DNA of 64,000 nucleotides from Rhodospirillaceae bacterium (GTDB taxonomy: Bacteria; Pseudomonadota; Alphaproteobacteria; Reyranellales; Reyranellaceae): positions 1-64,000 of the forward strand of contig WOUR01000022.1 of assembly GCA_009772935.1 (NCBI GenBank). The letters run 5' to 3'. Below the pieces are notes generated by a model, which did not search any database, was not told the DNA's origin, and was given only the letters and a program-made list of their open reading frames with translations. Position 1 is the stretch's first letter. Each line of letters opens with the position of its first letter. Made by a program: the position numbers and the translations under genes. Below are positions 49,883 to 52,150 of the stretch, in pieces.

Positions 49883-52150
49883 ATGATCGAGACTTCTCCC
49901 CTGCCGCTGGCACGCTTCAGGATCGTCGAGGTGAACGACGCGAATGTGCCTCTCTGCCTGCGTTTGGCAACATCGCTTGCGGCGAAGATCGTGGCCGATC
50001 TCGGCGCCGACGTGCTCAAGATCGAACCGCCTGAGGGCGATCCGGTGCGTCGTGCCCCGCCTTTGCTGCCGCAGGGCGGAAGCGCACTGTTCCAGTTCCT
50101 CAACACGTCGAAACGCTTCCTCACTCTCGATCTCGCGAGCGAATCCGGCCGCGCGACGCTGGCCGGTCTGGTCGAGGACGCCGACGCCGTACTATTCGAA
50201 GAGCCGGCTTCGGTCGCGTCGATGCTGCGTGCCGGAAAGGCCGCCCCCATCGAGATCGCCGCCTTCCCGGTCGAGATGGATGCCGCCCGACGGCCTGTCA
50301 GCGAACTGACGATCCAGGCGCTGGGCGGGTTGATGCACATGATCGGCGAGCCCGCACGCCAGCCGTTGAAGCTCGGCGGCCACCAGGCTTCCTATCCGGC
50401 GGGCCTCACCGCCTTCACCGGCCTCATGTCTGCGCTCGCCGCCCGCGACGCGGGCCGCCACGCGCTTTCGGTGCGGGTCTCGCTGGCCGAGGTGATGCAG
50501 TGGGTGAACTGGAAGGCCGCCTCCGGGGCCGCCGCCTCCGGCGTCTCGCCCGGCCGCGAGGGAAAGAACTCGGAGTTCCAGGTGCTTCCCTGCCGCGACG
50601 GGTATGTCGCCGTCGTCTACACCCTGACCCAATGGCCAGCGACGCGCGCTCTGGTCGGCAATCCCCGGCTCGACGATCCAAAATTCAGCACACGTGCCGG
50701 TCGGCGACAGAACATCGCCGAACTCTATGCGGCGCTCGCGCCGTGGTTCGCCGACAAGACGCGCGAGGAGATCCAGAAGACGGCGCAGGCCAGGGGCGTG
50801 CCGTTCGGTCCGATCTTCTCGCCGGCCGAGTTGCTGCGGACCGAGCAATATGTGGCACGAGGTTTCCTCGCCGATACGAGGCATCCGACGGAAGGCACGC
50901 TGCGCCTGCCGCAGCTGCCGGTGCAGTGGAACGGCCGGTCGTTCGCACCTCGCTCGGCACCGGAGCTATCGATGCCCCCTCCGTCGCGGATCACCGCGAC
51001 ACCTCCCCATTTAAATGGGGAGGGGAAAGAACGTCCCCTCGCCGGCATCCGCGTGCTCGACTTCGGACTGCTGACGGCCGGCGCGAACACTTCTGCGATG
51101 CTGGCTGATCTGGGTGCCGACGTGATCAAGATCGAATCCGGCGCCTATCTCGATCCGTTCCGGGTCGTCGGCAAGATCGACAATGACGACGGCTGGTGGA
51201 ACCGCTCGCCGCAGTTCCGCTTCACCAACCGCAACAAGCGCGGGCTGGCGCTGAACCTGAAGGATCCCGAGGGCCAGCGCGTGATCCGCGAGTTGGCCGC
51301 GAAGTGCGACGTCGTCGTAGAGAATTTCCGCCGCGGTGTGCTCGATCGCGCGGGGCTCGGTTACAAGGATCTGAGCGCCATCAACCCGCGCCTGGTGTTC
51401 GCCGCCATTTCCAGCCAGGGCGACACGGGGCCCGAGCGCATGAACGTCTCGTTCGGCAGCACGCTCGATGCCACCTCGGGCATCGCCTCGCTCACCGGCT
51501 ACGAAGGCGAGGGACCGCGCATTTCCGGCATGGACGTGAACTATCCCGACCAGATCGTGTCGCTGTTCGCGACCGGCATCGTCATTGCCGCCGTCACCGA
51601 AGCGCGCCGCACCGGCAAGGGCGCTTTCCTCGACTTCTCCCAGCGCGAGGTCGCCTCGTTCACCCTGGGCGAGGAAATCCTCGCCGCTTCGGCCGATCCC
51701 GCGCACCTGCTCGCGCCGCGCGGCAACGGCGAACCCGGCGTGGCGCAGCAGGACGCCTACCGTTGCGCCGACGGCAAATGGCTGGCCGTCACGCTCGAAG
51801 AAGCCGATTCATCGATGGAAGCCTTCTGTGCGGGCAAGGATCGAGACACCACCCTGGGGGTGCTGCTCGGCAAGGGCATTGCCGCCGCGCCCTGCCTCGA
51901 TGGCAACGACCTTTTGCGCGATGCCAGATTGCAGGGCGTCACGCTGGTCCGCGACGAGAACGGCGGTCTCGTGAAGGGCCTGCCCTACCGGCTCGACGGC
52001 AAGGGCCTCGCAATTGAGCGGCCCGCCCCCGATCTCGGCCAGCACACCGACGAGGTACTGCGCGAACTGCTGGGCTACGACGAGGCCCGCTTGAAGCAAT
52101 TGAACGACAGCGGCGTGACGTCGACCACGCCCACCATCGGAGAGGTTTGA
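49883..52150 (+). CDS. Tandem family III (CaiB/BaiF) CoA-transferase
   Basis: A 755-residue fusion of two family III CoA-transferase domains. The N-terminal unit is about residues 10-360 and the C-terminal unit about 385-755; each has the DLGADVLKIE segment. In the second unit the catalytic Asp lies in VNYPDQIVS (Asp556). In the first, the matching position is Ser170 in GGHQASYPAG, so it is probably not catalytic. The linker (about 374-381, PPHLNGEG) is encoded by a 22-bp palindrome. The ATG at 49883 is the likely start. It is followed after three bases by the nitronate-monooxygenase-like gene. The CoA acceptor is unknown. Confidence 0.9.
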   Translation: MIETSPLPLARFRIVEVNDANVPLCLRLATSLAAKIVADLGADVLKIEPPEGDPVRRAPPLLPQGGSALFQFLNTSKRFLTLDLASESGRATLAGLVEDADAVLFEEPASVASMLRAGKAAPIEIAAFPVEMDAARRPVSELTIQALGGLMHMIGEPARQPLKLGGHQASYPAGLTAFTGLMSALAARDAGRHALSVRVSLAEVMQWVNWKAASGAAASGVSPGREGKNSEFQVLPCRDGYVAVVYTLTQWPATRALVGNPRLDDPKFSTRAGRRQNIAELYAALAPWFADKTREEIQKTAQARGVPFGPIFSPAELLRTEQYVARGFLADTRHPTEGTLRLPQLPVQWNGRSFAPRSAPELSMPPPSRITATPPHLNGEGKERPLAGIRVLDFGLLTAGANTSAMLADLGADVIKIESGAYLDPFRVVGKIDNDDGWWNRSPQFRFTNRNKRGLALNLKDPEGQRVIRELAAKCDVVVENFRRGVLDRAGLGYKDLSAINPRLVFAAISSQGDTGPERMNVSFGSTLDATSGIASLTGYEGEGPRISGMDVNYPDQIVSLFATGIVIAAVTEARRTGKGAFLDFSQREVASFTLGEEILAASADPAHLLAPRGNGEPGVAQQDAYRCADGKWLAVTLEEADSSMEAFCAGKDRDTTLGVLLGKGIAAAPCLDGNDLLRDARLQGVTLVRDENGGLVKGLPYRLDGKGLAIERPAPDLGQHTDEVLRELLGYDEARLKQLNDSGVTSTTPTIGEV
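51002..51023 (+). repeat. 22-bp perfect palindrome within the CoA-transferase linker
   Basis: CCTCCCCATTT (51002-51012) and its exact complement AAATGGGGAGG (51013-51023). It encodes Pro-Pro-His-Leu-Asn-Gly-Glu at residues 374-380 of the fused enzyme, between the two domains. Palindromes of this kind are common as intergenic elements in alphaproteobacteria; here it is in frame within a gene. Confidence 0.8.

Follow-up and report, generated by a model that had tools for sequence, protein, structure and literature searches.

A short inverted-repeat element as the probable agent of a CoA-transferase gene fusion in Reyranella

Introduction

How does a perfect palindrome come to lie in frame between the two units of a CoA-transferase? 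The question is raised by a gene in the 64,000 nt stretch of DNA analysed here (contig WOUR01000022.1, positions 1 to 64,000), which is referred to as the window and comes from a genome of Reyranella, a genus of soil and water bacteria. An earlier reading made from the DNA letters (the sequence-only reading) had offered two explanations, namely that the palindrome joined two formerly separate genes or that it entered an existing linker without breaking the frame. The features of the locus are as follows.

49883-52150, + strand: fused gene, 755 aa, with two CaiB/BaiF-type CoA-transferase units (open frame; PF02515; orthologous fused frames in other Reyranella).
49883-50932, + strand: unit 1, residues 1-350, encoded separately in most congeners (own ORF in split genomes; alignments to 4ed9 and 10uh; homologue motif).
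50933-51034, + strand: linker, residues 351-384, 102 nt here (junction comparison; pLDDT <50 at residues 362-382).
50972-51028, + strand: remnant (right part) of an element of ~130 bp (matches ATGACCCCTCCGTCGCGGATGACCGCGACACCTCCCCATTTGAATGGGGAGG of congener linkers; RNA fold; exact ends inferred from other copies).
50972-50974, + strand: in-frame ATG, residue 364, 6 nt after GGAG, candidate internal start for unit 2 (sequence read).
50983-51000, + strand: inner hairpin of the element, GTCGCGG-ATCA-CCGCGAC (palindrome scan; near-identical hairpin in the L022, L023 and L033 linkers).
51002-51023, + strand: terminal palindrome CCTCCCCATTTAAATGGGGAGG, encoding PPHLNGE (sequence read, pattern and genome searches).
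51035-52147, + strand: unit 2, residues 385-755, a separate gene in most congeners, with the catalytic-Asp motif NYPDQ.

A palindrome between two CoA-transferase units

The fused ORF (49883-52150) starts at the ATG at 49883. CoA_transf_3 (PF02515) was the only Pfam family found in the 755-aa protein (E 3e-139, three stretches), which places it among the class III (CaiB/BaiF) CoA-transferases. The two units resemble each other, with 28 % identity over 208 columns. The catalytic Asp of the class is present in unit 2 (NYPDQ) and absent from unit 1, where a Ser occupies its position in alignments to 4ed9 and 10uh and the motif is YPAG (YPAG, YAAG or YPGG among homologues). Unit 1 is probably non-catalytic, because this Ser aligns with the catalytic Asp. 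None of the aligned homologues has the Asp in unit 1 (49883-50932), which suggests that the ancestral pair was a heteromer of a catalytic and a non-catalytic subunit resembling BbsEF.

In the AlphaFold model of the whole protein (pTM 0.83), residues 362-382 have pLDDT <50 and lie between two folded units. The best structural match of the model was BbsEF (succinyl-CoA:(R)-benzylsuccinate CoA-transferase, PDB 9fn0), and the Asp of unit 2 has an Asp of 9fn0_B as its counterpart in the alignment. BbsEF likewise combines two subunits of the class III CoA-transferase type, of which one has the catalytic Asp and the other apparently lacks it; unlike the Reyranella protein, it consists of two separate chains, and its sequence identity to that protein is below 30 %. 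With NYPDQ in unit 2, Ser and YPAG in unit 1 and a two-subunit enzyme as the best structural match, the enzyme is likely to be a heteromer in which one subunit is catalytic and the other is not. Distant two-unit CaiB proteins (~30 % identity, frames of 720-960 aa) are also found elsewhere in the genus (G058:C11:22976-24823, G052:C74:22632-24329), and CaiB pairs may have become fused on more than one occasion without help from the element described below.

Direct reading of the sequence confirmed that 51002-51023 is a perfect 22-bp palindrome, CCTCCCCATTTAAATGGGGAGG. Codon 374 begins at 51002, and 51002-51022 encodes PPHLNGE (residues 374-380) in frame. Both this and the position of the palindrome between two CoA-transferase units of a 755-residue protein are as the sequence-only reading had claimed. 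When up to 3 mismatches were allowed, the pattern was found once in the window, with 0 expected from shuffles. A genome search for further copies of the 22-mer had been suggested; the exact 22-mer CCTCCCCATTTAAATGGGGAGG proved to be unique in the 6.0-Mb genome of the window, but the family to which it belongs is present in many copies. Palindromes of the form CCTCCCC-N-GGGGAGG (N, loop) occupy 41 sites in this genome versus 4 for a reversed control, and a pattern search for the AT-core form gave 12 occurrences versus 0 for the control. The palindrome is thus real and not a product of chance. Among 190 sampled genomes of the class, the AT-core form was found in two, one of which is the window's genome, and in this sample it is therefore close to genus-specific. 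The second hairpin, at 50983-51000, was overlooked in the earlier reading. It belongs to the same element remnant, and the palindrome is hence only one part of the inserted sequence.

Split and fused states of the locus

Orthologues were sought in 65 Reyranella genomes and in sister genera. The two units are encoded by separate genes in 42 of the 58 scorable genomes, all outgroups among them, and are fused in the other 16, which include one contig that starts inside the element and was scored by hand (L096, = L028). All sampled sister-genus homologues with both units (L081-L085, L141) are split, and the flanking genes are syntenic between the two states. Split junctions are short and have the units in different frames, typically ...GAGCTCGCGGCATGAGC..., in which the TGA of unit 1 overlaps the ATG of unit 2; a few have a GTG start or a small gap in place of the ATGA. 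Fused junctions are 102-180 nt long, and all are stop-free multiples of 3, the frame being kept at each of the eight lengths found (102, 105, 114, 120, 153, 171, 174 and 180 nt). Close relatives with a complete element have a linker of 174 nt, and that of the window's genome is 72 nt shorter. Rather than one palindrome-free linker common to all homologues and a 22-mer found nowhere else, which the sequence-only reading had named as the outcome that would count against it, the comparison revealed separate genes in related genomes, split homologues with no such linker and a multi-copy family.

Both units are under purifying selection, with dN/dS of about 0.12 (0.125 for unit 1 and 0.112 for unit 2 among fused genomes; 0.17 in split genomes). 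An assembly artefact is an unlikely source of the fusion, because it recurs in independent assemblies, including that of the cultured strain R. aquatilis KCTC 52223. Reyranella soli NBRC 108950, by comparison, has the split state. One metagenome bin (G039) contains both fused (L035) and split (L071) copies on low-coverage contigs and is probably a mixture of two species.

The inverted-repeat element of Reyranella

In most fused genomes the linker is an inverted repeat of ~130 bp, laid out as CCTCCCCATTCAAATGGGGAGG, inner hairpin, CGGAGGGGTC, variable centre, GACCCCTCCG, second inner hairpin and CCTCCCCATTTGAATGGGGAGG. The window's genome retains roughly the right part, comprising the hairpin at 50983-51000 and the palindrome at 51002-51023. 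RNA folding gave z -4.1 for this remnant (50968-51030), and -94.3 kcal/mol with z -12.9 for one complete element. One linker (L019/L133) is too degenerate for the palindrome to be recognised and another (L061/L119) has diverged.

Copies of the element number in the tens per genome, and matches were found in 62 of the 65 Reyranella genomes; the copy numbers were obtained by pattern and BLAST searches and should be taken as minimum values. At least 44 further full-length copies, of 106-138 bp and with variable inner hairpins, were recovered from the window's genome and its congeners, in a sample that was chosen by BLAST, is incomplete and includes a few orthologous sites. According to a codon-usage gene caller, 31 of these 44 non-linker copies are intergenic, 13 overlap the end of a gene and none has coding sequence on both sides. 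We note that the terminal GGGGAGG often lies a few bases 5' of an ATG (e.g. L174, L207, L212) and could serve the next gene as a Shine-Dalgarno sequence. There was no Rfam match within the window. A plasmid or phage origin was rejected, as searches of plasmids with the element and of phages with the locus gave no match.

Probable fusion by insertion at a gene overlap

Insertion of the ~130-bp element at the gene overlap very probably fused the two CoA-transferase genes and supplied the linker. The split state is found in the outgroups and most genomes and the element lies at the same junction in most fused linkers, which argues that the insertion erased the stop/start overlap. Of the two explanations first offered, the joining of formerly separate genes is hence the one that is supported.

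The ancestral locus would have been a class III CoA-transferase subunit pair encoded by two genes that overlapped by a few bases. On landing in this overlap, the element would have deleted or shifted both the upstream gene's stop codon and the downstream gene's start codon. As the element is open in the needed frame, ribosomes would then read across it, and the product would presumably be a single, active polypeptide with a disordered linker rich in Pro, Ser, Gly and Glu (PPHSNGE...PPHLNGE). Later in-frame deletions would have caused the linker to decay, which in the window's genome would account for the loss of 72 nt and the retention of the right part of the element. Covalent tying of the subunits would be tolerated, because they probably work as a heteromer with the catalytic Asp in unit 2 and not in unit 1. 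No stop is left between the units in the fused frame, so that unit 1 alone cannot be produced by normal termination; free unit 2 could be made in the window's genome from the candidate start at 50972.

The number of events has to be inferred from the distribution of the two states and of the element versions. A five-gene tree of 59 rows requires 6 changes of state, no fewer than 5 of which are imposed by branches with good support, and an AU test rejected the descent of all fused genomes from a single origin (p 2.7e-35). The fused genomes fall in the window's clade, at L103, at L100 and in a clade of five (L019, L020, L021, L051, L061). Because split L089 and L091 lie inside the window's clade and fused L100 within a split clade, one insertion passed on by vertical descent alone does not explain the pattern, and exchange or repeated insertion has to be invoked as well. 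Different versions of the element in the fused genomes point to at least two insertions at the junction, with allele exchange probably explaining the remaining pattern.

There is about an even chance that the element inserted just once, in the window's lineage, and that homologous exchange of the short junction then carried it to other species, with no further insertions; this concerns the number of events, not the mechanism of fusion. Nine linkers, including L033 (= L100, G057; from another clade) and L035 (= L103), have the left inner stem CCCTCG..CGAGGG, with a single change in one or two of them. Elsewhere this stem makes up ~8 % of inner stems, which favours common descent of the nine linkers with transfer of the junction into L033. 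In BLAST, the L033 linker is 89 % identical to the query, closer than any non-linker copy. Recombination probably gave the split genomes inside the fused clade their split junction back. A hint of this, though not proof, comes from split L089, where the opening 120 nt of unit 2 most resemble split lineages and the remainder mostly matches the fused sisters of L089. Precise excision was rejected for the split genomes of this clade as incompatible with the junction bases. Against a single insertion stands the clade of five, whose linkers have other inner hairpins and partly CG-core palindromes, making a second insertion there likely.

Alternatives to fusion by insertion fare less well. The palindrome might function mainly as an RNA hairpin, a terminator or a binding site, its coding being incidental. 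The predicted RNA structure is very stable, and other copies are intergenic and often directly 5' of a start codon, but in the fused alleles L018, L019 and L021 hairpins are broken or deleted and the frame is nonetheless kept; we regard this reading as improbable. It is very unlikely that the two units were fused beforehand and that the element then moved into an existing linker, in the way that Rickettsia palindromic elements invade genes: the distant two-unit CaiB proteins of the genus indicate that fused forms can arise without the element, but every outgroup is split and no fused orthologue with an ordinary short linker was found, all linkers being long and mostly recognisable as the element. 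An older fusion in Reyranella, undone by precise loss of the element in the split genomes, is equally hard to credit, for although split L089, L091 and L095 adjoin or sit inside the fused clade, the outgroups are split, and split junctions keep a conserved GAGCTCGCGGCATGAGC-type overlap whose bases are gone from fused alleles, so that excision alone cannot restore them.

Comparison with known repeat families

Rickettsia palindromic elements (RPEs; Ogata et al. 2000) are palindromic repeats of 100-150 bp that are found between genes and also translated in frame within proteins, where they insert inside single genes and extend them (PMC2229807, PMC10969869). The Reyranella element is similar in size (106-138 bp in 44 copies) and in its stable stem-loop (-94.3 kcal/mol). 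However, many RPE copies are in frame inside coding genes, whereas none of the 44 non-linker copies of the Reyranella element is inside a gene, and the Reyranella insert joins two genes instead of extending one. RPEs are used here as an analogy, with no claim of kinship. In-frame inserts of palindromes have been described in Rickettsia; the novelty here lies in the repeated joining of two genes by an insert of this type, and a literature search of partial scope found no case in which a palindromic insert had joined two overlapping genes and both states survived.

The bacterial MITEs ERIC, YPAL and NEMIS are small, non-autonomous inverted repeats whose open frames have become fused to genes (PMC2229807). 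MITE-ORF fusions are known from enterobacteria and Neisseria (PMC2229807, PMC10969869, PMC3733652), and the reported cases are mostly added peptides or new small ORFs (PMC2229807). Like MITEs, the Reyranella element is short and multi-copy (tens per genome), and several copies have the terminal inverted repeats CTTTCCTCCCC...GGGGAGGAAAG. As to its presumed mode of movement, no target-site duplication was evident when filled and empty sites were compared at two junctions, where divergence is high, and a search for a partner transposase, confined to the Y1_Tnp family, found none.

GTAG/CGTC-tagged REPs and their dimers are head-to-head palindrome pairs of alphaproteobacteria, mostly intergenic and in some cases intragenic, and CGTC REPs have stems of 8-9 bp that begin with AT and a CCA tail (PMC3733652). 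The Reyranella element is also a mostly intergenic head-to-head palindrome pair in an alphaproteobacterial genus but, unlike CGTC REPs, ends in CCTCCCC/GGGGAGG. A Y1-type transposase is present in 33 of 65 congeners; none was found in the window's genome (G000), and no CTCCCC palindrome lies near the Y1 loci of congeners at the six loci examined. A Y1 transposase (RAYT) was therefore rejected as mobiliser for the window's genome.

A second junction and wider implications

A second junction lies ~23 kb beyond the CoA-transferase locus and outside the window (G000 contig C1:74272-74513 and downstream; loci L261-L290). Its genes, named from their sequences by eye, are a hydantoinase A/B-like pair, and in many congeners they retain the ancestral ATGA overlap. 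The element is present at this junction in three congeners. The window's genome and some ten others have another repeat there, CCTCATCCTGAGG...CCTCAGGGTGAGG; at this site the insertions separated the genes and did not fuse them. Given insertions at a second ATGA overlap, overlaps of co-translated genes may be common landing sites. We tentatively propose, at somewhat less than even confidence, that small palindromic repeats recurrently insert at the few-base overlaps of co-translated genes, providing a natural route to fusion with a ready-made flexible linker, and that this process fused the CoA-transferase locus two or more times in a single genus.

The locus offers a bacterial gene fusion for which the states before and after are preserved in dozens of related genomes and the fusing agent is still recognisable. 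A repeat that is supposedly intergenic can turn two coupled subunits into a single chain and, as orthologous split and fused enzymes exist in cultured strains, one can measure how covalent linkage affects subunit balance and activity.
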